64,000 bases of DNA, taken from NCBI RefSeq assembly GCF_029210385.1, contig NZ_JARGDQ010000006.1, positions 62,001 to 126,000 on the forward strand. The letters are read 5' to 3'. Position 1 is the first letter of the stretch; every line of letters starts with the position of its first letter. A model generated the notes under the pieces. It did not search any database, had not been told where the DNA came from, and saw only the letters and a list, made by a program, of their open reading frames with translations. A program made the translations under genes and the position numbers. This document shows positions 2 to 20,798 of the stretch, in pieces. This DNA comes from Desulfurivibrio dismutans (lineage in GTDB: Bacteria; Desulfobacterota; Desulfobulbia; Desulfobulbales; Desulfurivibrionaceae).

Positions 2-844
2 GGCCGGAAGATCCTCATAGCCACTCAGGTTGCCGAGCAGAGTCTTGATCTTGATTTTGATGTGATCGCCACCGACCTCGCCCCTATTGACCTTATCCTT
101 CAACGGGCAGGTCGTTTGTGGCGACATAAGCGGGATCAGGTGGAAAGAGGTGGGGTCCGCGAACCGCTCCTCCTGGTGGCGGGATTGGCCGGCGATGAGC
201 CGCCCGCATTCGGAAAGCCGCTTTGGTGGGGAAAAGTGTACCGCGAAGACCTGCTCCTGTATACCTGGAGCCTGTTGCAAAAAAGGCAACATCTGACTCT
301 ACCGGACGAAATAGATACCTTGGTGCAGACAGTTTACGAGGAACTGGTGGAGATGCCTGACTCCCTACGGGATCGGGCGAACAAAGCTCTGATGGACGAG
401 GATGGAAAAGATTGCGCGCATCGAGGACAAGCCAGTCAGGCGATCATCGGCCTTCCCGACGATGCTTCATGGAACGAACCTGGCCGATTTGTGCGCTACG
501 ACGAGAACCATCCAAACGTACATCGAACGCTGACGGCCCAGACAAGGCTTGGTGAAGAGTCAGCGGTGGTGATTCCGTTCTGTCCGGCAGACGGTTTCCG
601 CCCGGAAATTATGCCGGACTTTGAGCAGGCCAAGCAATGGTTTCAGCGGGCCGTGGGCCTGTCGCGTAAAGGTGTAATCAGGAAACTCCAGGCCCAGGGT
701 TTACCGGCTGGCTGGAAAAAGTCGCCGCTTCTGCGCAACTGTTTTCCACTGGTATTGAACACGGAAGGGCACTGGCAGGAGGATACAGCCGTGCGGTTGG
801 ATAAGGATTTAGGCGTGGTGTACGAGCAAAAGGAGGATGCATGA
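2..844 (+). CDS. cas3: Cas3 helicase-nuclease, C-terminal part (type I-E)
   Basis: Partial: the gene runs in from the left edge and about 280 residues are visible. Cas3 is the Cascade-recruited nuclease-helicase that degrades target DNA. The visible part begins at helicase motif V (ATQVAEQSLDLDFD, residues about 8-21 of the fragment) and motif VI (QRAGRLWRH, about 36-44), followed by the Cas3 C-terminal domain. The HD nuclease domain and Walker A motif lie outside the window. The stop overlaps the cas8e start as ATGA, which suggests translational coupling. Identity is secure from the motifs and the following Cascade genes. Confidence 0.93.
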   Translation, partial: GRKILIATQVAEQSLDLDFDVIATDLAPIDLILQRAGRLWRHKRDQVERGGVREPLLLVAGLAGDEPPAFGKPLWWGKVYREDLLLYTWSLLQKRQHLTLPDEIDTLVQTVYEELVEMPDSLRDRANKALMDEDGKDCAHRGQASQAIIGLPDDASWNEPGRFVRYDENHPNVHRTLTAQTRLGEESAVVIPFCPADGFRPEIMPDFEQAKQWFQRAVGLSRKGVIRKLQAQGLPAGWKKSPLLRNCFPLVLNTEGHWQEDTAVRLDKDLGVVYEQKEDA

Positions 845-2361
845 GCCGATTTAACCTGATTGATGAGCAATGGATTCCGGTGCGCTATCCCGATGGCCTT
901 AGAGGCGAACTGGGCATTCGTGACACCCTGCTGCGGGCAGCGGAAATCGAGTCCATCGAAGATCCTTCGCCCTTGGTGGTGGCGGCCCTGCACCGCTTCC
1001 TGCTTGCAGTGCTGTATCGAGCGCTGGAAGGTCCGACCGACATTGATCAGGCCAAGGCCCTGTTCAGGAGCGGCCTGCCCGGTGAGATAATAGCGGCTTA
1101 CCTGGAAAAGTGGCGAAATCGATTCTGGCTATTCGATGAGAATTACCCCTTTGGCCAGATACCGACTTTTACTCCAAAAATATGGAGGGCTTGGACCGTC
1201 CTTGCAGCCGAGCATAATGCTGACAATGCCAAGGTTCTCTTCGATCATATTGATGTCACAGCATCGGGAACCATTTCCGAAGCTGCCGCAACCCGCTGGC
1301 TTTTGGCAACCCAGACTTTTTCGGTGAGCTGCGGCAAGAGCGAGCTTTCCCATACCGGCACAGCTCCATCGGCGACTGCGGCTATGGTCCTGCCGCGTGG
1401 TCACAATCTCCAGGATACACTTCTCCTTGCACTTGTCTGGCAAAATCGGGAGGTTCTTGCCCAGGATCTCCCGTTGTGGGAGAGAGAACCTGAATCGGTT
1501 GAAACGCTGCAAAAAGGGGTTGGTCGCCTCGCAAGCGGTTTGGCTGACCGGTACACCTGGCGGATCAGGGCAATACGTTTCGCGGGAAATGGGGCCGGGA
1601 TAGATAAATTGGCCTTTGCTTCCGGGGTGGGAAATACTTTATCTGATCAGCTTGATCCCATGCTTGCTTACCGGAAGGACGAGAAAAAAGGCTTGCTCCC
1701 CATTCAGTTCAAGGAGAGGGGAATCTGGCGGGATTTCGATTCCCTTTTGCCTGATGGGTCAAAGCAGGCTCCTCGGGTGATCGAACATGCGGCGGAGTTG
1801 GGCAAAATGATTCCGGAGCGGTTTCCACAGTCGGTAATGGTGGTAGGTCAAGCCAACAACAAGGCGAAAATCGAGTTTTGGCGACTTGAGCGTTTTGCCC
1901 TGCCCAAAGCTTTGGTCGGTGATCGTCTTGTCCGGGAGGAAATAAGGCAGCTTCTTGCCGATGCAGAGGATACCCAAAAGGCTCTCTGGTTAGCTTGTCG
2001 AACCTATGCCGGTTCGTTAATGAGTCGTGGTGAACGAGAGCCAACGACAAAAGATATCAACGGTTTTATAGATCAAATACCGTCGACTCCCTGGTACTGG
2101 TCCTCCCTTGAAGCCAGGTTTCACGAAGTTTTGCGTGAATACAATATAGAGCGAGACAGTGAAGAAATTCGTTGCAGTTGGCTAAAGGTTATCCGCGACA
2201 CTTTGCGTAACGCGTGGGGCAAGCACAGCGCCTCGGTCTCCGTGGGGGGGGACGCTTGGGCCATACGTGCCCTGGTGAAGGCCGAGAGGCATATCGCCCG
2301 CAAGATGAAGGAACTTAGTGACAAGATTAAAAAACTCGAACCGCACAAGGAGGCACCATGA
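841..2361 (+). CDS. cas8e: Cascade large subunit Cas8e (Cse1/CasA)
   Basis: 506 residues, normal length for Cse1. This subunit of the type I-E surveillance complex reads the PAM and recruits Cas3. The N-terminus FNLIDEQWIPVRYPDG (residues 4-19) is the family signature, and the C-terminal half is rich in charged helices as in the four-helix bundle of Cse1. The start is ATG at 841, overlapping the cas3 stop, with AGGAGG at 831-836. The end overlaps cse2 by ATGA. Family assignment rests on the N-terminal signature and on position between cas3 and cse2. Confidence 0.95.
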   Translation: MSRFNLIDEQWIPVRYPDGLRGELGIRDTLLRAAEIESIEDPSPLVVAALHRFLLAVLYRALEGPTDIDQAKALFRSGLPGEIIAAYLEKWRNRFWLFDENYPFGQIPTFTPKIWRAWTVLAAEHNADNAKVLFDHIDVTASGTISEAAATRWLLATQTFSVSCGKSELSHTGTAPSATAAMVLPRGHNLQDTLLLALVWQNREVLAQDLPLWEREPESVETLQKGVGRLASGLADRYTWRIRAIRFAGNGAGIDKLAFASGVGNTLSDQLDPMLAYRKDEKKGLLPIQFKERGIWRDFDSLLPDGSKQAPRVIEHAAELGKMIPERFPQSVMVVGQANNKAKIEFWRLERFALPKALVGDRLVREEIRQLLADAEDTQKALWLACRTYAGSLMSRGEREPTTKDINGFIDQIPSTPWYWSSLEARFHEVLREYNIERDSEEIRCSWLKVIRDTLRNAWGKHSASVSVGGDAWAIRALVKAERHIARKMKELSDKIKKLEPHKEAP

Positions 2362-2891
2362 CCGGATTCATTGAGTGGCTGGAGAATCTTAGCAAGAAGG
2401 ATACCAAGGTACGGGCCGTGCTGCGGCGAAGCCTTTCTTTTTACCCTGGAACACATGTCCCAGCTTTCCCTTATGTTGAACCTTTTATTAAAGATGAGGG
2501 GAATTCATGGCGGCGGGAGATGTTTTATCTGGTGGCCGGGGTCTGGGCTGCCCACTGGCGTGAGGGACGAGCCGGAGCTCCGATGACCCTGCCTAGAGCT
2601 TGTGCGACGTACCAGACAAAAAGCGACTCAGCCAGCATTGAACGCCGTTTTATTTCTTTGTTGGATGCAGATCGGGATCAGTTGCCTCATCGCTTGCGGC
2701 AGATGGTGGCGCTGCTTAAGGACTACAGCCTGGATTTTGCCTCCCTGCTTCGGAATGAAAAGACTAAAAATGGGCTGCTCAATTGGCTTGATCCGCAAAA
2801 ACGCACCCAGAATGCCTGGGCTCGTGAATATTACAAAACTATGGGACAAGAAACGACAACCGAACCTATTACCGAGGAGGAAAGTAAATGA
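2358..2891 (+). CDS. cse2: Cascade small subunit Cse2 (CasB)
   Basis: 177 residues, in the usual range for Cse2. It forms the dimeric belly of type I-E Cascade and helps hold target DNA. The sequence is alpha-helical and basic, with [17 protein letters not shown] near residues 51-67 and [20 protein letters not shown] near 94-113, both typical of the family. It starts four bases inside cas8e (ATGA) and ends four bases inside cas7e, so the whole complex is translationally chained. The last codons before cas7e hold a GAGGAGGAAAG Shine-Dalgarno stretch. Confidence 0.94.
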
Positions 2892-4045
2892 AAACCCTGG
2901 TCGAAATCCATGCCTTACAGAATTTTGCCCCATCGAACCTGAATCGTGACGATACCGGCGCTCCGAAGGATGCTTTTTTCGGTGGTACCCGCCGCGCCCG
3001 GATTTCCAGTCAATGCCTAAAAAGAGCGATCCGCCAACATTTCAAGGAGATGGTCAAGCATGACACTTTGTCCGCAAGCGATGTCGCGGTCCGAACAAAG
3101 CGGGTTTTAGATGCAGTGACAGAAGCATTGATCAAAAAAGATAAACCAAAGGACGAGGCGTCCGAGAAAGCCCGTCTGGCCTTGGCGGCCATGGAATTGA
3201 AGGTAAAAGACGACGGCAAGAGCGAATATCTTCTTTTCCTTGGTCAGCAGGAAATCACAAATGTTGCCGGAATCATCAACGAAAAGTGGGACTCCATCAT
3301 CCAGGCTGCACCCAGTAATGAAGAGAAAAAGCCCGGTAAGGCCAAGAAACAAGCTGCCCAGGCAGCTGACCCGGAACTTAAAAAGGCTCTTGATAAAGTC
3401 TTTGATGGCGGCAAGGCCGTGGATGTGGCGCTTTTCGGTCGTATGCTGGCCGATATGCCGGCAAAGAATCAGGATGCGGCCTGTCAGGTGGCCCATGCCA
3501 TCTCGACCCACGCAGTGGACCGTGAGTTCGACTTCTACACCGCCGTTGACGACCGCAAGCCTGATGATAACTCTGGCGCGGACATGATGGGCACGGTGGA
3601 GTTCAACTCTGCCTGTTTCTACCGTTACGCGGTGGTGGATTGGGAGCAGTTGGTGAAAAACCTTCAAGGCGACTCGGAACTGGCTGCAAAGGGTCTGCGG
3701 GCCTTTCTTGATGGCTTTGTAGTTGCCGAACCCACCGGCAAACAAAATACTTTTGCCGCCCATAACCCGCCAGAATTTGTGGCGATTTCGGTTCGCCGCA
3801 ATACCGCCCCCCGCAATCTGGCCAATGCCTTCGAGGCGGCCGTTCGAGTGCGCAAAGATGAATCACTTACCGGCAAATCGGTCGAGGCCATTAAACAGAA
3901 GGCAACTGCGTTGCAGTCTGCCTATGGCGGCGATGGAAAAACCTTTGTGCTCAACCTCACCGGAGCTAAGGCGGATGATTTGGGTGCCACCCTGGAAACC
4001 CTTAAGGATATGCTCGATCAGACCCTTATTGCCGTTAAGGAGTGA
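2888..4045 (+). CDS. cas7e: Cascade backbone subunit Cas7e (CasC/Cse4)
   Basis: 385 residues. Six copies of this RAMP subunit coat the crRNA spacer in type I-E Cascade. The N-terminal signature is clear: [20 protein letters not shown] (residues 13-32) followed by [17 protein letters not shown] lysine- and alanine-rich low-complexity stretch near residues 145-162 ([19 protein letters not shown]) is probably a flexible insertion. It starts on an ATGA overlap with cse2 and ends 4 bp before the cas5e ATG. Confidence 0.95.
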
Positions 4046-4049
4046 AACC

Positions 4050-4745
4050 ATGCCAACCTTACTGCTTCGACTGGTAGGCCCCATGCAATCTTGGGGCACT
4101 ACCAGCCGCTTCGATCAACGCGATACCGGAAAGGAGCCGAGCAAATCCGGGGTGATTGGGCTCATCGCCGCTGCATTGGGGATTGACCGGGAGAACTGGA
4201 ATGACTTAGAGCCGCTTACTCGTCTCATGATGGGAGTGCGGCATGATCGGCCGGGGGTGCTCAAACGGGATTATCAGACAGCTGGCTGCGCCAGGGATGA
4301 CACCATCATTCGGGCGGATGGATCACCCTCTAAGGATGGCGTGGTTTCAAGCCGATTCTACCTTGCCGATGCAGCTTTCCTTGTAGGTTTGGAAGGAAAC
4401 GACTGTAGACTTTTCGAAAAAGTGCAAATAGCCCTCCGCAACCCTTGTTGGCCACTGGCGCTGGGGCGTAAATCCTATGTGCCATCCGAACCGGTCTGGA
4501 TCAAGGATGGTATCCAAGAAATGCCGTTACGGAAACTCCTGGAAAGATGGCCGTGGATTGCTTCGGCCCGGAAAGGGGAAATGACGCCGGAGAACTTTTT
4601 GATTTCTTACGAATCACCGTACGGCTCTGGCATCCTCAGGATGGATCAACCTCTTTCCTCCTTTGCCGAGCGGCGCTTCGGGGCGCGGTTCGTTCGCTCG
4701 GAATTGATTCCCTTTTCGCAGGGGGTGGCCCATGTTTCTGCATAG
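4050..4745 (+). CDS. cas5e: Cascade subunit Cas5e (CasD)
   Basis: 231 residues from the ATG at 4050, chosen because it follows the cas7e stop by 4 bp and gives the conserved Cas5e N-terminus (LLLRLVGPMQSWGTTSRFD, residues 4-22). The same frame is open far upstream inside cas7e, but that part has no Cas5 similarity. Cas5e binds the 5-prime handle of the crRNA and caps the Cas7 backbone. Its last 14 bases overlap cas6e. The Shine-Dalgarno is AAGGAG at 4036-4041, inside the cas7e end. Confidence 0.94.
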   Translation: MPTLLLRLVGPMQSWGTTSRFDQRDTGKEPSKSGVIGLIAAALGIDRENWNDLEPLTRLMMGVRHDRPGVLKRDYQTAGCARDDTIIRADGSPSKDGVVSSRFYLADAAFLVGLEGNDCRLFEKVQIALRNPCWPLALGRKSYVPSEPVWIKDGIQEMPLRKLLERWPWIASARKGEMTPENFLISYESPYGSGILRMDQPLSSFAERRFGARFVRSELIPFSQGVAHVSA

Positions 4746-5409
4746 AATTCATCTTAATCCCAGGTCCAGGGAAGCGAGGCGGGATATTGCCGACCCTTAC
4801 CAGTTTCACTCTACCCTGTGCCGGGCCTTCAGCGGGCCGGAGACTAAATGTCCGCCCGGCGAGTTCCTCTGGCGGCTTGAACCGGAAAGCGACCAGAGTG
4901 GACGGCCACGCATTCTTGTCCAAAGCCGGGAGTTACCCAATTGGGCCGTTCTTCCCATCGGTTGGCTCGATGAGGCGGAGCCAGCCATTGACCTGTGCGA
5001 CCGGCTGCGGCTTGACGCAATCAAAGCCGGGCAGCGTTTCCGCTTCCGCTTGCGTGCCAATCCCTGCGTGACTCGGAACGGAAAACGGTTGGGATTGTTG
5101 CGGCGAGAGGAGCAAGAAGCTTGGCTTGCCAGAAAAGGCGGGCGGCATGGGTTTTCGCTGCCGCAATCGGTATCCCTTGATTTCTCAGGTCATTCAAAAG
5201 AAGGAGCCGATGTCTGGATTTCGCAGGAGATTATGCTTCGGGGGAGGCAGCATTCCGGGAATGGTATTCGCATCTTTTCGGTGCTCTACGATGGTTTCCT
5301 GCTAGTTACTGAGCCGGAGGCATTTCGAATCACTCTGCAAAACGGCATTGGACACGGCAAAGCCCTAGGGCTTGGGCTTTTGTCAGTGGCACCGGCTGGC
5401 TATGAGTAA
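4732..5409 (+). CDS. cas6e: crRNA-processing endoribonuclease Cas6e (CasE)
   Basis: 225 residues, normal for Cas6e. It cleaves the pre-crRNA at the base of the repeat hairpin and stays bound to the 3-prime end of the crRNA. The N-terminus MFLHRIHLNPRSREARRDIA and the glycine-rich loop near the C-terminus (GIGHGKALGLGLLSVAP) are diagnostic. It overlaps cas5e by 14 bp. Unlike a standard I-E operon, it is followed after 39 bp by a RhuM-Fic gene rather than by cas1. The array downstream carries the CCCCGC/GCGGGG hairpin that Cas6e recognises. Confidence 0.95.
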   Translation: MFLHRIHLNPRSREARRDIADPYQFHSTLCRAFSGPETKCPPGEFLWRLEPESDQSGRPRILVQSRELPNWAVLPIGWLDEAEPAIDLCDRLRLDAIKAGQRFRFRLRANPCVTRNGKRLGLLRREEQEAWLARKGGRHGFSLPQSVSLDFSGHSKEGADVWISQEIMLRGRQHSGNGIRIFSVLYDGFLLVTEPEAFRITLQNGIGHGKALGLGLLSVAPAGYE

Positions 5410-5425
5410 TTTTGGCCAATATCTA

Positions 5426-5437
5426 TTGCAAATGCAA
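5426..5437. promoter_or_regulatory. Inverted repeat TTGCA-AA-TGCAA before RhuM-Fic
   Basis: A perfect 5-bp inverted repeat with a 2-bp centre lies in the 39-bp gap between cas6e and the RhuM-Fic start, just before the AAAAGGA Shine-Dalgarno (5436-5442). The same half-sites with an AAAAA centre occur inside the gene at 5645-5659. The RhuM N-terminus looks like a DNA-binding domain, so this is a candidate autoregulatory site. That role is inference. Confidence 0.35.
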
Positions 5438-5448
5438 AAGGACATACC

Positions 5449-6434
5449 ATGAAACCCGATCTTGGCGAAATCATCCTCTATCAGTCCGAGGACGGCAGTA
5501 GCGCCCTTGATGTGTACCTAAAGGACGAGTCGGTTTGGCTGACCCTGAACCAGATGGCAGAGCTTTTTGGTCGTGACAAGTCCGTAATTTCTCGCCATTT
5601 AAATAATGTTTTTCGGGATAAGGAGTTGGCCAGGGCGGCAGTTGTTGCAAAAAATGCAACAACTGCCGCCGATGGCAAGACGTATCAGGTTGAGTATTTC
5701 AGCCTCGACGCCATTATCTCCGTGGGCTACCGGGTCAACTCCATGCGTGGCACCCAATTCCGCATTTGGGCCACCGGGGTGCTGAAGGATCATCTGGTGC
5801 AGGGCTATACCCTTAACCAACGGCGGCTGGCAGAGAAAGGAGTTGCCGAACTAAAGCAGGCCATGTCGCTGCTGGCCAACACTTTGGAGAGCCATGATCT
5901 GATCAACGAGGAAGGCAGAGCGGTGTTGAACGTGGTCAATCGCTATGCCCGTACCTGGCAGCTTCTTCTTCAATACGACGAGGATTGCTTGCCGATGCCG
6001 GAAGCGCGGCAACAAGCCGGGGCGGGGCTCCGAATCGAAGAAATCCGTCAGGCTATCGATGCTCTTAAAAAGCATCTGATGGAAAGGGGTGAGGCCACCG
6101 ACCTTTTTGGACAGGAACGTGGCCATGGGTTGTCCGGCATCATCGGGGCGGTGCAGCAATCCTTCGGTGGCCAGGAACTTTATCCGAGTATAGAGGAAAA
6201 GGCGGCCCATCTCCTCTATTTTGTTATCAAAGATCACCCCTTCAGCGATGGCAACAAGCGGATCGGTTCTTTTCTCTTTGTGCTATATTTACAACAAAAT
6301 GGTCTGGAGAACGGGGGGCGATTCGACAACCGGGCGCTGGTGGCCCTGGCTCTTTTGACTGCGGCCAGTGATTCAGGGGCCAAGGAATTGATGATCCGGT
6401 TGATGCTGAACCTGCTTGCGGAGAGACAGGACCC

Positions 6435-6438
<4 letters not shown>
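5449..6438 (+). CDS. RhuM-family DNA-binding domain fused to a Fic/Doc domain, inside the cas operon
   Basis: 329 residues. The N-terminal half matches the virulence RhuM family: a helix-turn-helix-like stretch WLTLNQMAELFGRDKSVISR (residues 27-46) and the conserved block SLDAIISVGYRVNSMRGTQF (about 85-104). The C-terminal half is a Fic fold with HPFSDGNKR starting at His263. Fic AMPylases have HxFx(D/E)GNGRxxR. Here the Gly before Arg is Lys and the last Arg is missing, which is closer to Doc, a kinase of EF-Tu, so the transferred group is uncertain. The gene sits between cas6e and cas1, starts after AAAAGGA, and ends in an ATGA overlap with cas1, so it should be co-expressed with the adaptation genes. 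No separate antitoxin gene adjoins it. Confidence 0.85.
5634..5670. repeat. Perfect 16-bp hairpin with A5 loop inside RhuM-Fic
   Basis: Arms at 5634-5649 and 5655-5670 are exact reverse complements (GGCGGCAGTTGTTGCA on the left) around five A residues. It lies in codons for AAVVAKNATTAA. Its core TTGCA-AAAAA-TGCAA repeats the half-sites seen before the start codon at 5426-5437. It could be an mRNA hairpin that separates Cascade from cas1-cas2 expression, or a protein binding site. There is no T-run on the coding strand, so it is not a standard terminator. Confidence 0.55.
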
Positions 6439-7626
<1,188 letters not shown>

Positions 7627-7719: not shown

Positions 7720-10700
7720 ATGTTCCCCGCACCCGCGGGGATGAACCGAATCCGTCCCGATGCTGCGGAAAGACATCAGCATGTTCCCCGCACCCGCGGG
7801 GATGAACCGCGTCCCGGAGTTTGGCGGTGATGCTCAGATTGATGTTCCCCGCACCCGCGGGGATGAACCGGTTGAGCATCCTGATTAGCAGGAAGCGGTA
7901 AGATGTTCCCCGCACCCGCGGGGATGAACCGTACCTGCGAACCGAGAAACCCAAGGCGCCAGCATGTTCCCCGCACCCGCGGGGATGAACCGCCCCAATA
8001 TGTAGTAAAACCAAAAACCAGGAGATGTTCCCCGCACCCGCGGGGATGAACCGGAGCTGCGGGAGGCGGTATCGGTGATGGAGCAATGTTCCCCGCACCC
8101 GCGGGGATGAACCGTTCGTATGCGGGGCCGTTTTGAGCTTTGATCAATGTTCCCCGCACCCGCGGGGATGAACCGAACGACGCTCAAGGGTACGGCTCCG
8201 CGATCACATGTTCCCCGCACCCGCGGGGATGAACCGAGTTTTGCGCTGATCTGGTGGCGCTGGTGGAGATGTTCCCCGCACCCGCGGGGATGAACCGATG
8301 CGAGAATTAAAAAACACCATTTGTTTTATATGTTCCCCGCACCCGCGGGGATGAACCGGTCATGGCCGCCGCTGCCGCTGCTGGTGGAGCATGTTCCCCG
8401 CACCCGCGGGGATGAACCGACCAATATTGAAAAATTCATCGACCACATGGAATGTTCCCCGCACCCGCGGGGATGAACCGATTGATGATGTAGGCGCCAT
8501 TGAAATCAACGAATGTTCCCCGCACCCGCGGGGATGAACCGTACCGTTTTTACCCGACGCCGGAGCAAGAAAAATGTTCCCCGCACCCGCGGGGATGAAC
8601 CGGTGGAAGATAGCGCGCCCATTGGGGGCAAAGAATGTTCCCCGCACCCGCGGGGATGAACCGCCCTGCTGGATGACAAAGCACAGGCACACGAAATGTT
8701 CCCCGCACCCGCGGGGATGAACCGGTCCAGGAGGAAGGAAAAAGCTACCGGGATGCATGTTCCCCGCACCCGCGGGGATGAACCGAGGTCACATTAAACC
8801 CCTTGCCTCAAGAAATGATGTTCCCCGCACCCGCGGGGATGAACCGCTGGCCAGCACGTCCCGGCCCTGGTGGCACTCATGTTCCCCGCACCCGCGGGGA
8901 TGAACCGACGGAAGCCTTACGCATATCGGGGATAATCCGATGTTCCCCGCACCCGCGGGGATGAACCGGCGCGGACATCTGGAAGGAAAAGAACTGGCGA
9001 ATGTTCCCCGCACCCGCGGGGATGAACCGACACGGCAATCCACGGGGGGCTGAGATTATGCATGTTCCCCGCACCCGCGGGGATGAACCGCCGACCCGGT
9101 TGCACCAGCGTTTACCATCCCAATGTTCCCCGCACCCGCGGGGATGAACCGGTGCGGATATAGGCATTGCGGTTGGTATCGCCATGTTCCCCGCACCCGC
9201 GGGGATGAACCGCAGGTTTTGACCGTCTTCCGGACGTGGGGATTATGTTCCCCGCACCCGCGGGGATGAACCGCTGAGCGCCTGTCTCGCATCCTTAAAA
9301 CTGGTATGTTCCCCGCACCCGCGGGGATGAACCGACTACCACCAGTGCTGCTCATGGGGATGATTAATGTTCCCCGCACCCGCGGGGATGAACCGAGGTT
9401 GGCCCCGTAATTCTCCGTGGTTATGGTATGTTCCCCGCACCCGCGGGGATGAACCGACGCGGACATCTGGAAGGAAAAGAACTGGCGAATGTTCCCCGCA
9501 CCCGCGGGGATGAACCGAGCGTTATAATTTGGTATTGGGATTGCGGGGCATGTTCCCCGCACCCGCGGGGATGAACCGGATCAGAAATACACCTGCCAGA
9601 AGTGCGGGGCATGTTCCCCGCACCCGCGGGGATGAACCGCCCACTTGCACCACGTCGGCCCCGGTGATCAGATGTTCCCCGCACCCGCGGGGATGAACCG
9701 CCAATAGTCTGCGTTCTTTCTCACCTCGTCAAATGTTCCCCGCACCCGCGGGGATGAACCGACCAGCCCTTGCCGCTGTCGGGGTGGAGATTCATGTTCC
9801 CCGCACCCGCGGGGATGAACCGCGTAGATCGAAAAAATAGACATCAGAACACGGATGTTCCCCGCACCCGCGGGGATGAACCGCGTTGCAGCGGGGGTTG
9901 TCGTGTGCGTTTGTTATGTTCCCCCCACCCGCGGGGATGAACCGGCCACCTGACCCGGCACAAGATCGGGGTGGAAATGTTCCCCGCACCCGCGGGATGA
10001 ACCGTTGGATCGGGCAGCACCACCCCTGCCAACACCATGTTCCCCGCACCCGCGGGGATGAACCGGCACGGTTGCGGCGGAAAAATCCGGTCGTTTCATG
10101 TTCCCCGCACCCGCGGGGATGAACCGAGCTTGAGCAAGACCACACGCTGGCGGCGGGCATGTTCCCCGCACCCGCGGGGATGAACCGCGTTTTGAAATTA
10201 CCAGCAACACCCGGAACAGATGTTCCCCGCACCCGCGGGGATGAACCGCGCTACCTTGCTGCTTCCCGGGGACTGCGGGTATGTTCCCCGCACCCGCGGG
10301 GATGAACCGCTCTTTTATGCCGTCGATTTTGAGCATTAGTAATGTTCCCCGCACCCGCGGGGATGAACCGCGCAACATCGCCGCCACCGCCCCAACGGTC
10401 AAATGTTCCCCGCACCCGCGGGGATGAACCGAGCAACCGAAATACGAGACAGGGAAAAACATCATGTTCCCCGCACCCGCGGGGATGAACCGCCCATTGC
10501 CGGGCTGGCCCTGACGATGGACCGATGTTCCCCGCACCCGCGGGGATGAACCGATACCAACACTTGCGGCACTTGCACGGCCACCATGTTCCCCGCACCC
10601 GCGGGGATGAACCGATGTGAATCTAGAATGGACAGCAGGCATGGTCATGTTCCCCGCACCCGCGGGGATGAACCGATCGCCGCCAACACGGAGAAATACC

Positions 10701-13700
10701 CGGTTGAATGTTCCCCGCACCCGCGGGGATGAACCGGTCTGGATATTGATTTATATGGCGGCACTGTAATGTTCCCCGCACCCGCGGGGATGAACCGGTC
10801 GGGGTGAATCCGTGGCTTGCCCCTTCGTGATGTTCCCCGCACCCGCGGGGATGAACCGGCCACCTGACCCGGCACAAGATCGGGGTGGAAATGTTCCCCG
10901 CACCCGCGGGGATGAACCGCAGCCGTAGCCGCTGAGCAGGGGCGCAATGACATGTTCCCCGCACCCGCGGGGATGAACCGGCATATAGTCTGCTGGTCAG
11001 GTACTCGGACACATGTTCCCCGCACCCGCGGGGATGAACCGTTGACTCGCGCCGAAACCAACATGCGCTTTGTATGTTCCCCGCACCCGCGGGGATGAAC
11101 CGTTCCCAAACCAGCACTTTCTCCCCATTGATTCATGTTCCCCGCACCCGCGGGGATGAACCGCCGACGCTCCAGACAACCGCCCACCCGGCTGAATGTT
11201 CCCCGCACCCGCGGGGATGAACCGCATACGCCCTGGACGCGGTGTGGAGCCCCGACATGTTCCCCGCACCCGCGGGGATGAACCGCTGAGTGGCAAGGTT
11301 ACGGGCCGGAACTCCCCATGTTCCCCGCACCCGCGGGGATGAACCGATGGAGCAGGAGCAGCCCAGCGTTTACGACGAATGTTCCCCGCACCCGCGGGGA
11401 TGAACCGATAAACTGAATATTCATGTGATCGTTGGTGATATGTTCCCCGCACCCGCGGGGATGAACCGGACGGGGTTAAGCGGTACTCGACCGACGTCAA
11501 ATGTTCCCCGCACCCGCGGGGATGAACCGTGACCCACAGATGTATTTGCCCATCCCAGTCAATGTTCCCCGCACCCGCGGGGATGAACCGCCCGCTTAAT
11601 TCGGTACTGGCGCGGCTGGTTGATGTTCCCCGCACCCGCGGGGATGAACCGTGCCCCATAACATGTGGGGAGAGGTTGAGGACATGTTCCCCGCACCCGC
11701 GGGGATGAACCGTAGGCGTTCATATCTTTCAGGAACTCTTCAACATGTTCCCCGCACCCGCGGGGATGAACCGTCAGTCAGGATACTTTTGGTAGCGTAG
11801 TCCATATGTTCCCCGCACCCGCGGGGATGAACCGGCCGCTTAGGCTTTCCAACAACAAATATACCGATGTTCCCCGCACCCGCGGGGATGAACCGCCAAA
11901 GAGCTTGCCAGGGGCACGCTGCGCAGCATGTTCCCCGCACCCGCGGGGATGAACCGGCCACGGCGCGAATCTGGACGGCCAACGGGGAATGTTCCCCGCA
12001 CCCGCGGGGATGAACCGAGCCGGTTCCGCATCGACGGGGCAGTGGCGTTATGTTCCCCGCACCCGCGGGGATGAACCGGACTACCGGGCCTTGGAGGGTG
12101 GCGGCACGATATGTTCCCCGCACCCGCGGGGATGAACCGTGGATAACATCGTCGCCGGGTCAACGAAAATCATGTTCCCCGCACCCGCGGGGATGAACCG
12201 CTCATCACGAGAAAGGTTAGGGCGATTAGCGAATGTTCCCCGCACCCGCGGGGATGAACCGAGATAGCCCGCCGCACCGAGCTGGCCGTGAGCATGTTCC
12301 CCGCACCCGCGGGGATGAACCGGCGAGGAGAGGCTGAAATACTCGCCACCACTGATGTTCCCCGCACCCGCGGGGATGAACCGGGCAGGAAGAGGCAGAG
12401 AACCTGGTCGCCGACATGTTCCCCGCACCCGCGGGGATGAACCGCGATTGAAATAGTTAACCAGTTACTGCCGCTCATGTTCCCCGCACCCGCGGGGATG
12501 AACCGCCCGTTTCCATGCCCCTGAGTGATGATACTCCATGTTCCCCGCACCCGCGGGGATGAACCGGAAGATTTACCGGCGAAGCGCTCAAGCCAGCGAT
12601 GTTCCCCGCACCCGCGGGGATGAACCGGAGGATATCATGATCGACTACACGCAAGTAGTATGTTCCCCGCACCCGCGGGGATGAACCGGTGGCTGATCGC
12701 CAACTGGTGCTCTACAACAGATGTTCCCCGCACCCGCGGGGATGAACCGAGCGACATTGGCTTTCAGGTCTTTAAGAGCTTATGTTCCCCGCACCCGCGG
12801 GGATGAACCGGTGGAGCCGGCAACAGTGGCCGACCATATAGAATGTTCCCCGCACCCGCGGGGATGAACCGTCAGGCGGCCGCACGGGCAAGGGTTTCCA
12901 CTGATGTTCCCCGCACCCGCGGGGATGAACCGCCCGCCGGACACTGTTTCGCGCCTGGGCCAGTATGTTCCCCGCACCCGCGGGGATGAACCGCGTTCGA
13001 TCCCGGTGTGGATCACCTTCGAGGGATGTTCCCCGCACCCGCGGGGATGAACCGAAGGGCCGCTTAGCGACCTGACGCTGTCCGGCATGTTCCCCGCACC
13101 CGCGGGGATGAACCGTACGGTTTCTGGTACACCATCCGGGCCTGGGAATGTTCCCCGCACCCGCGGGGATGAACCGAAAGCCACCTACGGGTATTTTGTG
13201 GGAACAGTATGTTCCCCGCACCCGCGGGGATGAACCGGTCGCGGCGTGAGCGATGTAGTCGGCCCGGCTATGTTCCCCGCACCCGCGGGGATGAACCGCC
13301 ACAGTAGCGCTGAAAATCCTGGTCATGCTCATGTTCCCCGCACCCGCGGGGATGAACCGGCACGGCCAAGAGCAACCCGTCGCCAGTTGCCATGTTCCCC
13401 GCACCCGCGGGGATGAACCGGAGCAGCGGCCATGATGCCGGAGCAGCAGCGGATGTTCCCCGCACCCGCGGGGATGAACCGGCCCCGGCGTTGTCGTCCG
13501 GGGTGCTTGTGACATGTTCCCCGCACCCGCGGGGATGAACCGGTGATCGGCTTGCCGAACTTGGTGATCAGCTTATGTTCCCCGCACCCGCGGGGATGAA
13601 CCGCTGCCGATGGTGTCCGCGTCATCCCCGACTTGATGTTCCCCGCACCCGCGGGGATGAACCGTTCTGGTCATGGGCCCACAACAGTTGTTCGTGATGT

Positions 13701-14335
13701 TCCCCGCACCCGCGGGGATGAACCGAGGTCGGTCGATTGAGCGTCCCCATGCCTTGTATGTTCCCCGCACCCGCGGGGATGAACCGGGCCAGGATATACC
13801 CGGGGAATTTTTGACCCTATGTTCCCCGCACCCGCGGGGATGAACCGCACTCCTGAATAACTTTGCCGGGGTCGCACTTATGTTCCCCGCACCCGCGGGG
13901 ATGAACCGTTTGTCCGGGGCGGCGTTGGCACATTGACCGGATGTTCCCCGCACCCGCGGGGATGAACCGGAGATATTGGCCCTGCTGGGCCTCAAGGAGA
14001 CATGTTCCCCGCACCCGCGGGGATGAACCGCGGGTGAGCCGATTAGTCATCCGAGCGCGTATATGTTCCCCGCACCCGCGGGGATGAACCGAACCAGAGC
14101 GGCAAATACCTGACCCTCCAGGTATGTTCCCCGCACCCGCGGGGATGAACCGTGATTGTTCTGGTTGTGACAACGGTTTTTTGGATGTTCCCCGCACCCG
14201 CGGGGATGAACCGCTAGTCACTCATCGGTATCAATGGGCGGTAAAATGTTCCCCGCACCCGCGGGGATGAACCGCGTGGAGTTATGCCGGAAAAATCAGT
14301 AAACAGATGTTCCCCGCACCCGCGGGGATGAACCG
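7720..14335 (+). CRISPR. Type I-E CRISPR array, 109 repeats and 108 spacers
   Basis: 29-bp repeats starting ATGTTCCCCGCACCC and ending GCGGGGATGAACCG, each followed by a 32-bp spacer, giving a constant 61-bp step. Counted by position: starts run 7720, 7781 ... to 9977 (repeat 38), then 10037 ... to 14307 (repeat 109), the phase shifting once because repeat 38 lacks one G. Only two repeats differ from consensus as I read them: repeat 37 (9916-9944, G10 to C) and repeat 38 (9977-10004, one G of positions 18-21 lost). CCCCGC and GCGGGG form the Cas6e hairpin. Spacer 37 (9945-9976) equals spacer 52 (10859-10890). Spacer 21 (8969-9000) and spacer 29 (9457-9488) differ only at base 1. The last repeat is intact and followed by 8 bp and an IS, so the original end of the array is missing. 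Confidence 0.99.
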
Positions 14336-14404
14336 GAAACGGGTGTCAATGGCCATTTGTTTTGACCCACCTTTGGCCAACAATTTTGACCCACCCCACC
14401 TCCG

Positions 14405-15145
14405 CTATTCGTCCGTTTTCTGTTTTAGCCGATAACTCTCTCCTCCTAGCATAAATATACGCGAATGATGGATAATGCGATCGATGATCGGCACTGCCAC
14501 ATTGTCGTTGTGGAAGAATTCGCCCCAGTGGGTGAAGTCTTTGTTGGTTGTGATGATCAATGATCGGTATTCGTAGAAGCTGTTGATCAGCTGGAACAAA
14601 TTGTAACGTGATTGCCGGCTCATCGGCAGGTAGACCAGCTCGTCGATGACCATGAGGTCAAATTTAACCAACTGACTGATCTTTTTTTTCAGTTCACCTT
14701 TCATTTCCGCCAGTTCCAATTCCTCAACCAGATCCAGGGCGCCGCGGAACAGGACCTTGTAACCGGCGTTAACGGCTTTTTGGCCAATCCCAATGGCCAA
14801 ATGGGTTTTGCCGACGCCCGGCGGGCCAATAAAGATCACATTACTGCGCTGATCAACAAAGTCAAAATCCAGCAGGGCATTGACCTGGCGCTTGTTGATC
14901 GTGGTCTGATGCCGGTAGTCGAAACCCTCCAGGAGTTTTTCCGCGGGGAAACCGGCTTTACGGCGATTCAGAGCGATCCGTTTACCGGTGCGCTGCTCCA
15001 GTTCGTAGTCGGCCATCAGTTCCACCAGGTGCAGATAGGAAAGCTCGTTGGCGTCGGCTCGGGCCAACAGTTCCGGCAACTGATTGGCCGTCGCGTTGAG
15101 CCGTAAGTTGCGGTATTTGGTGGCCGTTCGTTCAGTGGCATCCAT
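14405..15145 (-). CDS. istB: IS21-family helper ATPase IstB
   Basis: 246 residues. IstB is the AAA+ ATPase that assists IstA in target choice and strand transfer. Walker A is [10 protein letters not shown] near residues 106-115 and Walker B is LMVIDEL near 163-169. The C-terminus RIFMLGGESYRLKQK is typical. It overlaps istA by 14 bp, as usual for the family. It appears intact, so the element may still be mobile. Confidence 0.95.
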   Translation of the reverse strand: MDATERTATKYRNLRLNATANQLPELLARADANELSYLHLVELMADYELEQRTGKRIALNRRKAGFPAEKLLEGFDYRHQTTINKRQVNALLDFDFVDQRSNVIFIGPPGVGKTHLAIGIGQKAVNAGYKVLFRGALDLVEELELAEMKGELKKKISQLVKFDLMVIDELVYLPMSRQSRYNLFQLINSFYEYRSLIITTNKDFTHWGEFFHNDNVAVPIIDRIIHHSRIFMLGGESYRLKQKTDE

Positions 15146-16655
15146 GGTTCACCTCCTGCCCGAGGGGGTGGTCACCATGGCGGGCCGTTAACGACGCGTA
15201 CTGGCCCAACTGGATTTCGGTATCCGGAAGATCCGTTGCCGTGATGCGGTCACGCCCCCGTTCTTTTGAGCGGCGGGAGGACTCCAGGTAGCGTTTCAGG
15301 GCCGTGGCGGTCAACGTGGGCCGCTGGGCCAGTCGGTCCACCAAGGCCAGGTCAATGGTCTCTTCCGCCTTGAGCAGTTGAACGGCGGCCACCAGTTGAT
15401 CTTTGTAAATCCGGGGCGAAGTGCTCTTCAAAACCTGGCACAATCGCTCGCCTGCCGGCTGACCCAGTAATGCCCGGATCGCTCCTTCAAGCTCCTGGAG
15501 CCGCTGGCTGTGATCACGGTAATGATGGGTGTTTTTGATGATCCGGCCCTTTTCGGGGCAGACAGCGTGGGTGGCGATCTTTTTGCCGCGGCCAAGGTCG
15601 ATGACCTGCAGTTGTTCATCCTCGACTTGCACCCCGACCTGGCCACCTTGGTAGGCCATGGGCACCGAGTAGCGATTGGCCCGCCAGGAGATCAGCCCGG
15701 TCTTGTCAACTTTGCTACGCTCACTGGCCGATACCGCTAAACAGGCAGGAGTCAGATAGGGGCGCAAATGCGCCTGCTCCTCGGCCTCAAAATGCTGCCG
15801 GGGAACCCGCCCGGTGGTACCATGGGTTCGCTGGTTGGCCAACTCGTCCAGCCACTGCCGGACGTAACGGCGCAGGTCCTGCCGATCGCTGAACGCCTCG
15901 CCATACAGGCAGTTATGCTTGACATATTTGACTCCGGCCTCGACCTTACCTTTGCTCTCGGGATCATAGCCTTCGCAAGCGTGGACCCGCATACCCACTG
16001 TGGCCGCATATTCTGCAAAACGCTGATTAAGCGTCAATTCACGATAAAGCTCTTCGATTACCACCAGCTTGGTTTGGTCGTAAACACATTCCTCGGCAAC
16101 GCCGCCAAAGTAACGGAACGCCTCATCGTGAAGCTGGATAAACCGACCGGTATCAATGGGCTCAAAGGAAATACCGACGTACATCAGCCGGGAAAACGAT
16201 AAGACGAACACCACAAAGTACAGGGTCTGTGGCTCGCCACCGATCATCAACCCCCGCAACTCCCCCGGGTCAACTTGGCATTGAATCCCCGGCACATGAT
16301 CGACAATCGGTTCATAGTAGCGCTTTTGAGCCACGACCCCGGTCTCTTTCAAGGCCAAAACATAGCGGCGGATACTCCGATCGGACACCGCCACCCCGCT
16401 TACCTTCTCCCGCAGTTTACGGGCCACTTTCACCGCACTGAGGCGGGGATAGGTCTCCAGAAGATAAACGATATAACTCCGGTGCACGTCCAAACGCTTA
16501 TGGCGTGACCGGTCATACTGGGCCTGGCTGATGTCCGCCTCATCAAGGCGCAGATACTTGCGGACCGTGTTACGAGAAATACCCAGCTCCGAGGTAATAG
16601 CACGGACCGATAAGCCACCTCCGTTATCGTGTAACGCTTTGATTTTATGAATCAT
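15132..16655 (-). CDS. istA: IS21-family transposase IstA
   Basis: 507 residues from the ATG at 16655, chosen because GAAGGAG lies just upstream and the family N-terminus (IHKIKALHDNGGGLSVRAI) begins there. The frame stays open to 16772 in the terminal repeats, but that is not protein-like. An N-terminal helix-turn-helix (VRAITSELGISRNTVRKYL) is followed by the DDE integrase core: Asp in CQVDPGELRG, Asp in CVYDQTKLVV, and Glu in YDPESKGKVEAGVKYVK. No frameshift or internal stop is seen. Confidence 0.94.
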   Translation of the reverse strand: MIHKIKALHDNGGGLSVRAITSELGISRNTVRKYLRLDEADISQAQYDRSRHKRLDVHRSYIVYLLETYPRLSAVKVARKLREKVSGVAVSDRSIRRYVLALKETGVVAQKRYYEPIVDHVPGIQCQVDPGELRGLMIGGEPQTLYFVVFVLSFSRLMYVGISFEPIDTGRFIQLHDEAFRYFGGVAEECVYDQTKLVVIEELYRELTLNQRFAEYAATVGMRVHACEGYDPESKGKVEAGVKYVKHNCLYGEAFSDRQDLRRYVRQWLDELANQRTHGTTGRVPRQHFEAEEQAHLRPYLTPACLAVSASERSKVDKTGLISWRANRYSVPMAYQGGQVGVQVEDEQLQVIDLGRGKKIATHAVCPEKGRIIKNTHHYRDHSQRLQELEGAIRALLGQPAGERLCQVLKSTSPRIYKDQLVAAVQLLKAEETIDLALVDRLAQRPTLTATALKRYLESSRRSKERGRDRITATDLPDTEIQLGQYASLTARHGDHPLGQEVNHGCH

Positions 16656-16790
16656 AACCCACTCCTTCAACAGATCCCCTCCTATCCGTAAATAGTTGGG
16701 GACACTAATCGCTTTATGGCCGCTTGGCCACTCCTCGGGGTGGGTCAAAATTGTTGGCCAGTAGTGGGTCATTATACTTGGCCATTAACA

Positions 16791-17325
16791 GCCGTTTGAC
16801 GGTCACAGCTTTAAACAGCGACTCGCTGACCAGGTTCTTGGTCATCCGGTTGCTCATGGCGTAGCCGACAATTTCGCCGGTGCAGATATCCTTATGGCCG
16901 GCCAGGTAAAGCCACCCCTCATTGGTGGGAATATAGGTGATGTCCGTCAGCCAAACCTGATTGGGAGCATCGGCCGCAAAGTTCTGGGACAGCAAGTTCT
17001 TGGCCACCGGCAGGGAGTGGTTGGAATTGGTGGTGGCTTTAAATTTTCTCTTCTGGCGGCAGCGGATGCCGAGTTCGCGGCGCAATCTCTTGATCCGGCA
17101 AACCCCGACCCGCACCCCATGATCCGCCAGGTCCTCTTGCAAACGCTCCGCGCTGTAGCTCTCTCTGGTCCGGCGGTGGGCCGCCTTGATCTCTGCTGCC
17201 AACCTGGCGTCCTCCCGTTGCCGACGCGACGGGGGCCGGGTGCGCCAGGCATGGTAACCACTCAAGGATACTGCCAAAGCCCGGCCCAGTGCCGGCAAGG
17301 GATAGGTGGGTCGCATAGCTTCCAT
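16791..17325 (-). pseudogene. IS3-family transposase OrfB, 3-prime truncated
   Basis: About 178 codons of OrfB remain. The N-terminal part (HTH_21-like, YSAERLQEDLADHGVRVGVC) and the first catalytic Asp (VWLTDITYIPTNEGWLYLAG) are present. The second Asp and the Glu of the DDE triad are gone because IS21 starts at 16790. The frame continues to 16714 through IS21 sequence, adding about 25 unrelated residues. The start overlaps the orfA stop as TGATG. The product cannot be an active transposase. Confidence 0.9.
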
Positions 17326-17639
17326 CAGCGCGTACCGGGCAGCGACTCCTTGGCAAAATACGCGGCTGCTTTTTTTAAGATGTCTCGCTCCATCCGGACC
17401 ATGGCCAGTTCCCTTTTGGTCTTGGCCAATTCAACTTCCACCTCAGTCAGGGGGCGGCGATTCTTGCCGATGTTGCCGAGTTTGCCCGCCTTGGCCGCTC
17501 GCACCCAGGTCTCAAGAGTGCTTTTCGGTAATGAGAGCCGCTGGGCCGCTTCTCCGGCAGACAGTCCGTCCTCCAACACCAACCGGGCGGCCTCTTCCCG
17601 GAACTCCTTTGTGTATCGGCCGTGCGGAATTTTTCCCAT
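17325..17639 (-). CDS. IS3-family OrfA (helix-turn-helix)
   Basis: 104 residues, intact. YTKEFREEAARLVLEDGLSA and AQRLSLPKSTLETWVRAAK form the DNA-binding helix-turn-helix, followed by a leucine-zipper-like stretch (EVELAKTKRELAMVRMERDILKK in the C-terminal third). In IS3 elements OrfA alone represses transposition, while the -1 frameshifted OrfAB fusion is the transposase. Here OrfB is broken, so only a regulator-like OrfA can be made. The start ATG at 17639 has GGAGGTG 6 bases upstream. Confidence 0.92.
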   Translation of the reverse strand: MGKIPHGRYTKEFREEAARLVLEDGLSAGEAAQRLSLPKSTLETWVRAAKAGKLGNIGKNRRPLTEVEVELAKTKRELAMVRMERDILKKAAAYFAKESLPGTR

Positions 17640-17710
17640 GATGACACCTCCACTCTGGTTTATGAATGAATGATCAGAGTTTTCGTGTCCATCATTTTCA
17701 GCCTACCTCA

Positions 17711-17810
17711 GTCGCCCCCCACGCGGGGGGCGTGGATTGAAACAAAGGTTTTGTTGCTGGCGGTGGTGGTGGGCGGCGAGGGTCGCCCCCCTCGCGGGGG
17801 GCATTGAAAC
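17711..17810 (+). CRISPR. Remnant of a type I-C-like CRISPR array (two repeats, one spacer)
   Basis: Repeat 1 is 33 bp at 17711-17743: GTCGCCCCCCACGCGGGG then GGCGTGGATTGAAAC, the well-known type I-C repeat pattern. A 38-bp spacer follows (17744-17781), a length usual for I-C. Repeat 2 (17782-17810) is degenerate: A11 is T and GTGG is missing before ATTGAAAC. A decayed last repeat marks the distal end of an array read left to right, so leader, other spacers and cas5-cas8c-cas7 genes are gone or elsewhere. The IS3 end touches base 1 of repeat 1. Confidence 0.88.
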
Positions 17811-17879
17811 ACGTTGCCGAAGGCTTTGCCACTGCCGCCATTTGCTTGCTGTTAAAGAGCATCTGGGATAGATTTGATC

Positions 17880-17944
17880 ATGGCGTATCCTCCTGTGTTG
17901 GTTGTGATCGTCGTGGTGATCAATCAACCTGGATGATACGCCAT
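17880..17944. repeat. 65-bp imperfect palindrome before the O-methyltransferase gene
   Basis: Outer arms ATGGCGTATC (17880-17889) and GATACGCCAT (17935-17944) are perfect reverse complements. Further in, TCC pairs with GGA, and GGTTGTGATC is matched imperfectly by GTGATCAATCAACC. It lies in the 178 bp between the I-C remnant and the methyltransferase start. It may be a transcript hairpin or the scar of a small mobile element. I cannot name the family. Confidence 0.5.
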
Positions 17945-17988
17945 TTCCCTCAGTTATCCCATACACCAGATTTGACCAGGATCCAGCT

Positions 17989-19277: not shown

Positions 19278-20798
19278 CTAGGCCGTCAGGCCGTAAGCAA
19301 ATTGCACCGCCTCTTCCAGTCGGTTGATTTCTTCATCCGCAAGGAAAGCGAAGCTGCCGGTGCGCTTGCGGGCGGAAAGCCGGCCATTGTGTTGCAGGCA
19401 GAGGCGGATGAAAAGGTCGATCTGGCGATCGGGCATGTCCACGATTTCCTGGATGGCCTTCTTGGCTGTGTCGTAGCTTGCCAGGAACGCCAGCTCCCCG
19501 GCCAGCTCCGTGTCGATGGTCTGGCCGATGAAGCGAAAGAGTGCCTCGGCCTGGGGCGTCAGGTCGAGGTAACGGTACAGGCTCGCCGTGTCGTTATGGA
19601 CGGTCATGCACCCTTCTTCGTCGATGGAGTATTCCACCAAGGACATAAGCTGCCGGGAGAATGCCTCCAGGGAGGCGTCATAATCGGCGGGATTTTTCAG
19701 CATGATGGCGGAAACGGGAAACATGACCCCTTCGGGCGTAAATCCCCGGCGGGCTAGGATGTTGTGGATCAGGAAGCGGTGGATTCGACCGTTGCCGTCC
19801 TCGAAGGGATGCAGAAAAACGAAGCCGTAGGCAATGGCGGCGGCATGGATCACGGCGGAGACGTTTCCGGCCTCCATCCTGTTGTGGGCCGCGAGCAGAC
19901 CGTCCATCAGCTCGGCAAGGTCCTGCGGCTTCGGGCCCACGAAGTGGATTTTTTCTCCCTGCCAGGCCACCGTCTCGCCGACATAGTTTTGGCTGGTCCG
20001 GTAATCGGGGTCGCGGAAGCGAGGGTCGACAATGCGATTCTGTAGCTCAATTAATCGTTGTTTGGTACAAAAATCTTCCTGTTCGGCCATTTGCAGGAGG
20101 GCGATGAAGCGCTCGGTCCTGGTCGAGCTGGGCGTTACGTGCTCAATCTCGAAAGAGGACTTGGTCTCCTTTGAATAGAAGTACCCCAGGGCCCTCTTCA
20201 GCAGCTCCGGAGGATAGTCGGCCACCACTTGCCGGCAGCGGCCGGGCAGGTCGGCTGCCTCATAGTCGCGGAGAGTGTCGGTTCGGCGGATCAGTGGGCA
20301 GAAGCGACCGTCGCCCGGCAGATTGTCAATGATCCGTTGCCGCCGGACCTGCCTCCCCGGGGTGACCGCGTAGTATTGATCCGGCTCGAGCAGCTTAATG
20401 TAGTTACCCCGCTTCAGATCGGCAAGCGGCAGCTTTCTGCCGGTCAGAAGCTCGTAGAGGAACCACAGGCGCCGGGCATACTTGCCGGTCGGTTTGGACC
20501 GGACATGGTCGCTGATCTCTCCGGCATCCGCCTGCTGGAAAAGGCTGGCGAGGATGGCGAGATTAGTGCCGTCATACTTCAGCGCGAATTCAAGGTGGTT
20601 GCCCACGGTTTCGCCCGGCCAGTACCTGGCCGGAAAAACCTCTTCGATCATCTCCCCGGTCGAGTCGATGCGGTGGGTGCCGCCGGTGGCGACCAGGGAG
20701 CGGCGCCAGTTAGGAATGACCTCCAGGCCGTACCGGTCGATAAGCTCCGCATACCCTGCAAGTCTGTAGGCCGGTTTATCCCGGTTGTCTTCAGCCAT
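19278..20798 (-). CDS. Fic-domain protein (putative AMP-transferase)
   Basis: 506 residues. The canonical active motif HPFEDGNGRIHR begins at His330, with all residues needed for adenylyl transfer to a target hydroxyl (HxFx(D/E)GNGRxxR). An N-terminal domain contains SSFEIEH near residues 215-221, which resembles the (S/T)xxxE(G/N) inhibitory helix of class II Fic proteins except for His in the last position. The C-terminal 100 residues look like a winged-helix region. The ATG at 20798 follows GGAGG. It is an isolated minus-strand gene with its own promoter and three phased repeats upstream. The target protein is unknown. Confidence 0.88.
   Translation of the reverse strand: MAEDNRDKPAYRLAGYAELIDRYGLEVIPNWRRSLVATGGTHRIDSTGEMIEEVFPARYWPGETVGNHLEFALKYDGTNLAILASLFQQADAGEISDHVRSKPTGKYARRLWFLYELLTGRKLPLADLKRGNYIKLLEPDQYYAVTPGRQVRRQRIIDNLPGDGRFCPLIRRTDTLRDYEAADLPGRCRQVVADYPPELLKRALGYFYSKETKSSFEIEHVTPSSTRTERFIALLQMAEQEDFCTKQRLIELQNRIVDPRFRDPDYRTSQNYVGETVAWQGEKIHFVGPKPQDLAELMDGLLAAHNRMEAGNVSAVIHAAAIAYGFVFLHPFEDGNGRIHRFLIHNILARRGFTPEGVMFPVSAIMLKNPADYDASLEAFSRQLMSLVEYSIDEEGCMTVHNDTASLYRYLDLTPQAEALFRFIGQTIDTELAGELAFLASYDTAKKAIQEIVDMPDRQIDLFIRLCLQHNGRLSARKRTGSFAFLADEEINRLEEAVQFAYGLTA

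Follow-up and report, generated by a model that had tools for sequence, protein, structure and literature searches.

An IS21-family element at the seam between a type I-E and a type I-C CRISPR array in Desulfurivibrio dismutans, probably the mark of a deletion

How does a type I-E CRISPR array come to break off within a spacer and continue, through two insertion sequences, into a scrap of an array of another type? Old spacers are lost from CRISPR arrays and whole systems disappear, and the physical steps are seldom caught. The window examined here (64,000 nucleotides of Desulfurivibrio dismutans, contig NZ_JARGDQ010000006.1, positions 62,001 to 126,000) contains such a junction, the parts of which are listed in Table 1. 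We consider the seam to be the product of an IS21-associated deletion, with a probability of roughly 0.7.

Table 1. Features on either side of the seam, in window coordinates.
Feature	Position	Strand	Details
Type I-E cas operon	62..7626	+	cas3 (end), cse1, cse2, cas7, cas5, cas6e, [RhuM-Fic/Doc gene], cas1e, cas2e; Pfam and NCBIfam matches
Type I-E CRISPR array	7720..14335	+	109 repeats of ATGTTCCCCGCACCCGCGGGGATGAACCG, 32-nt spacers, 61-bp spacing
Truncated I-E spacer	14336..14343	+	first 8 bp, GAAACGGG
Intact IS21-family element	14344..16790	-	2447 bp, ends TGTCAATGG / CCATTAACA
istB, helper ATPase, 246 aa	14405..15145	-	PF01695 4e-73; NF038214 above cut-off
istA, transposase, 546 aa	15132..16772	-	NF033546 2.2e-75, above cut-off
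IS3-family element, left part	16791..17710	-	920 of about 1275 bp; 178 codons of orfB kept, no right end
IS3 orfA	17325..17639	-	PF01527 HTH_Tnp_1 2.5e-13
Type I-C-type repeat	17711..17743	+	GTCGCCCCCCACGCGGGGGGCGTGGATTGAAAC; abuts IS3 left end
Sole surviving I-C-type spacer	17744..17781	+	38 nt
Degenerate, probably terminal, I-C-type repeat	17782..17810	+	GTGG missing
Truncated IS256/Mutator-type element end with transposase gene start	17841..17976	-	92% identical to multi-copy AHT2 IS ends

The system on the left of the seam is of type I-E: Cse1, Cse2, Cas7, Cas5, Cas6e, Cas3, Cas1e and Cas2e are all encoded, the repeats are 29 nt and the spacers 32 nt long. The locus is complete and its cas genes are intact; a RhuM-Fic/Doc-type gene occupies the gap between cas6e and cas1e (5449-6438). 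The leader of the array faces cas2e and the cut end is leader-distal. The count of 109 repeats includes one that is a base short (a strict search gives 108). As a preliminary description of this DNA had stated, the array halts at IS21 after an intact repeat and 8 bp: the final repeat (14307-14335) is canonical, GAAACGGG follows, and the break falls at 14343. The loss of distal I-E spacers, also claimed there, was borne out, as the array breaks within a spacer after a canonical repeat and lacks a degenerate terminal repeat.

The element at the break carries istA and istB together (NF033546 and NF038214, both over curated cut-offs) and has terminal inverted repeats with 5'-TG...CA-3' ends, which are common to two copies in Desulfurivibrio alkaliphilus AHT2, a member of the same genus with a single-contig genome of 3,097,763 bp. 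The 61-nt arms are 84% complementary when 7 flanking bases are counted in. Because the two AHT2 copies match the window element over exactly 2447 bp (91% identical end to end), its ends are firmly placed. It shares istA and istB, terminal inverted repeats and, at one AHT2 copy, a 5-bp duplication with IS5376 (PMC10122671) and ISCfr8. In the window the flanks are ACGGG/GCCGT, in contrast to the clean ACTGT/ACTGT at that AHT2 copy, so the reported absence of a target duplication stands. We read the missing duplication as a property of the insertion site that was lost by rearrangement, not as a sign that the element falls outside the family. No second IS21 copy was found in the D. dismutans assembly (2.84 Mb, a 33-contig draft, 99.99% complete), nor any further IS21 pieces at contig ends. 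The 7-bp flanks at 14337-14343 and 16791-16797 are nearly inverted (AAACGGG/AAACGGC, reading into the IS21 ends), whereas neither AHT2 copy has anything like them. At least 6 of 7 matches are expected in about 0.26% of random 7-bp flank pairs. Our working view is that these flanks are a coincidence, and we count them against the deletion account as an unexplained feature.

The other IS21 end lies within an IS3 orfB, as described before, although the statement that half of this gene is missing was too strong: 178 codons are kept and about 38% is gone. Assignment to the IS3 family follows from the orfA helix-turn-helix domain (PF01527) and from intact relatives with both ends (genomes G043, G189 and G138; 1275 bp, 87-92% DNA identity), in which the C-terminal part of orfB matches rve models; the window element itself has no right end. 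Identity to the intact copy at L103 is 91.6% in DNA as far as the junction, and to the G043 copy 95% in amino acids. Homology to the intact copies reaches exactly to the start of IS21, with 359 of 1275 bp lost (a portion of orfB and the right end). At the far side the IS3 left end TGAGGTAGGC sits directly against GTCGCCCC in the first I-C repeat, in agreement with the preliminary description. The rve_3 profile, which as a positive control detects the C-terminal part of intact IS3 orfB, finds only IstA in D. dismutans, and the lost part of orfB, whose presence elsewhere as an unrelated IS copy had been named as contrary to the preliminary account, is nowhere else in the assembly. The IS3 occurs once, apart from two end-only pieces on contig C29: a mini-element, about 80 bp long (278904-278983), which has both IS3 ends but lacks a transposase, and a solo end (276931-276955, locus L031), which together flank a putative phytoene-desaturase-like gene.

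The repeats beyond the IS3 are of type I-C, since the same repeat type adjoins Cas8c genes in genomes of the same family (G011 and G026, at L122 and L125). No match to PF09709, and thus no Cas8c (Csd1), was found in the genome, nor were other I-C cas genes or any I-C repeats beyond these two. The I-C scrap is therefore the relic of an array and not a system. The IS256/Mutator-type end begins 30 bp past the second repeat, and the scrap thus has IS debris on both sides. The intact AHT2 copy of this last element matches PF00872, and a full copy was not seen in the D. dismutans genome. A Fic-domain gene lies further on (19278-20798), and AHT2 also has a Fic gene past its array; blastp between the two gave no match.

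These junctions can be explained by a short series of events, in which we infer the order, the route and the size of the deletion. The IS3 would have entered a type I-C-type array, as suggested by its intact left end abutting a repeat. IS21 would then have come to lie at either breakpoint, whether that in the I-E array or that in the IS3. The stretch from the I-E array to the middle of the IS3 orfB would have been deleted, with IS21 remaining at the seam. This step would have removed the distal I-E spacers, the IS3's right end and the I-C array on its leader side, together with anything between. With elements of hundreds to thousands of bases, chance can be discounted for the junctions. Both adjacent deletion and recombination between IS copies are known to leave an IS, free of a target duplication, at the seam of a deletion. 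In evolved E. coli (B) none of the 14 IS movements with a large deletion had a target duplication, and all 14 were put down to adjacent deletion (PMC11708052). Those deletions resemble the window in both respects, but they involved IS150, IS5 and IS481, whereas here IS21 and two CRISPR arrays are involved and the ancestor was not found.

Type I-C cas genes are usually found at the leader end of their array. Because the surviving I-C scrap is the leader-distal end, the deleted stretch may have included an I-C cas operon, or the array could have been an orphan beforehand. The loss of an I-C system suggested in the preliminary description is supported (no Cas8c, two repeats only), and an I-C cas operon may or may not once have lain between the arrays. 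Adjacent I-E and I-C cas genes were seen in none of 258 genomes of the class; genomes that have both sets carry them well separated or on different contigs. A search for a strain or relative that retains the pre-deletion order found none, which counts against the deletion reading. Nor did a relative turn up with the same junction and no IS, an outcome that had been named as contrary to the account.

A second seam of the same design is present in AHT2. In the direction of the arrays, a full I-F cas set is followed by an I-F array of 116 repeats, the last of which is cut after 21 of 28 nt, then by IS21, by 3 bp (GAA) and finally by the 41 repeats of an I-E array, which closes with a degenerate terminal repeat (G001:C1:1780100-1782570, the end of locus L061). 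Cse1 is absent from the AHT2 genome, and this I-E array is an orphan without I-E cas genes; two duplicate spacers stand beside its distal end. Here too the same IS21 lacks a target duplication, is oriented relative to the arrays as in the window, and connects the leader-distal end of one array with a second array's leader side. The AHT2 seam differs in its partners (I-F and I-E as against I-E and I-C), in the absence of an IS3, in its breakpoints and in the survival of 41 repeats of the second array. The two seams are independent events, and this IS21 has joined CRISPR arrays at least twice. The other AHT2 copy (2405733), which has the clean duplication, lies within another element's putative transposase gene. 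Between the two AHT2 copies there is 1 base of difference in 2447, and transposition in AHT2 has therefore been recent. A single ancestral insertion shared by the two species was considered and rejected: flanks, breakpoints and partner arrays differ, the AHT2 remnant has 3 bp of spacer compared with about 29 expected, the species have zero spacers in common, and third-codon divergence of IS21 (16-20%) is below the 31% of a syntenic gene (a single gene).

The route to the seam can be weighed against this background. If the I-E array and an IS3 inside the I-C array had each carried an IS21 copy in direct orientation, homologous recombination between these would delete the DNA separating them, leave one hybrid copy and yield exactly the product observed, without a target duplication. 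Near-identical copies (2446/2447) do coexist in AHT2, one of them inside another IS gene, and array-array endpoints in both genomes would follow if IS21 insertions mostly survive in dispensable DNA. Recombination of this kind nevertheless requires two insertions in direct orientation, a single copy remains in D. dismutans, and no strain with both copies is known; we regard it as possible but not probable. Of the preliminary account, the IS21-associated deletion is supported. Two IS21 copies may or may not have recombined, the assembly having a single copy, and IS21 may first have entered either the IS3, as proposed there, or the I-E array. Both routes fit the seam. Adjacent deletion by a single IS21 is the more economical because there is one copy in the genome, an argument to which we attach little weight. 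A further point against the deletion reading is that in each of the two genomes both breakpoints fall in array-related DNA, which calls for some bias that a deletion model by itself leaves unexplained.

An inversion, a translocation or the integration of foreign DNA at IS21 might also have placed the I-C scrap and the IS elements beside the I-E array. Some support for this comes from the CRISPR islands of the two species, which occupy different chromosomal positions (that of AHT2 is at 1.78 Mb) and yet have in common, upstream of their cas genes, a WYL-domain gene and a BRO gene with amino-acid identities of about 80% and 56%; the cas genes are I-E in D. dismutans and I-F in AHT2. The islands have therefore moved and share at least part of their history. 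We count it for the deletion that the D. dismutans island lies between blocks 1.9 kb apart in AHT2 (830.7 and 832.6 kb). The coordinates of the pair are 18649-19894 in L062 with the start of L137, and 15976-17753 in L134. An inversion or translocation would, however, have left the rest of the IS3 and a reciprocal junction at IS21, and neither is in the genome. The reciprocal product is therefore missing, which favours deletion over inversion or translocation. Moreover, the arrays are co-directional and the leader side of the second is lost, as deletion predicts. We think such a rearrangement unlikely. A misjoining of unrelated loci at a repeated IS21 has to be considered in a 33-contig draft, since IS copies are classic points of misassembly. 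Both IS21 and this IS3 are single in the assembly, contig ends carry no other IS21 pieces, and a fusion of the same design is present in the single contig of AHT2, which makes an artefact very improbable.

The process is known; its product is unusual and recurrent. Insertion sequences are reported to damage CRISPR-Cas loci, and IS insertion into CRISPR loci is mentioned as well (PMC10359306), but the insertions described there are in cas genes, whereas in the window the I-E cas genes are undamaged and the IS stands at the seam of a probable deletion that joins two array types. A junction of IS21 with CRISPR arrays was not described in the titles and abstracts found. What was caught here is the same step in two species of one genus, with IS21 placed where one array's leader side meets the distal end of an array of another type, and it explains how orphan arrays such as the AHT2 I-E array and the I-C scrap of the window can originate.

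It also raises the testable question of whether some IS elements have a bias towards arrays or simply persist in them. All three full IS21 copies are in dispensable DNA (two at array-array seams, one in an IS gene). Two of the three fuse arrays of different types, and plasmid relatives of this IS21 are only about 68-71% identical in DNA. The two seams have four IS21 ends, of which three are in contact with array sequence and one is in an IS inside an array. We think it unlikely that CRISPR arrays are preferred targets of this IS21 subgroup, for insertion or as deletion endpoints, and that it repeatedly prunes and fuses arrays of differing type. Survival bias could explain the location of the three copies, a number too small to reveal a preference. 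No CRISPR-adjacent copies were seen at nine loci of distant IS21 relatives, many of which are truncated or at contig ends, and the five copies in G102 showed none by a short-motif check alone. A fixed position of IS21 within repeats was rejected: its ends lie 8 bp beyond an I-E repeat, 3 bp short of another and 21 bp into an I-F repeat.
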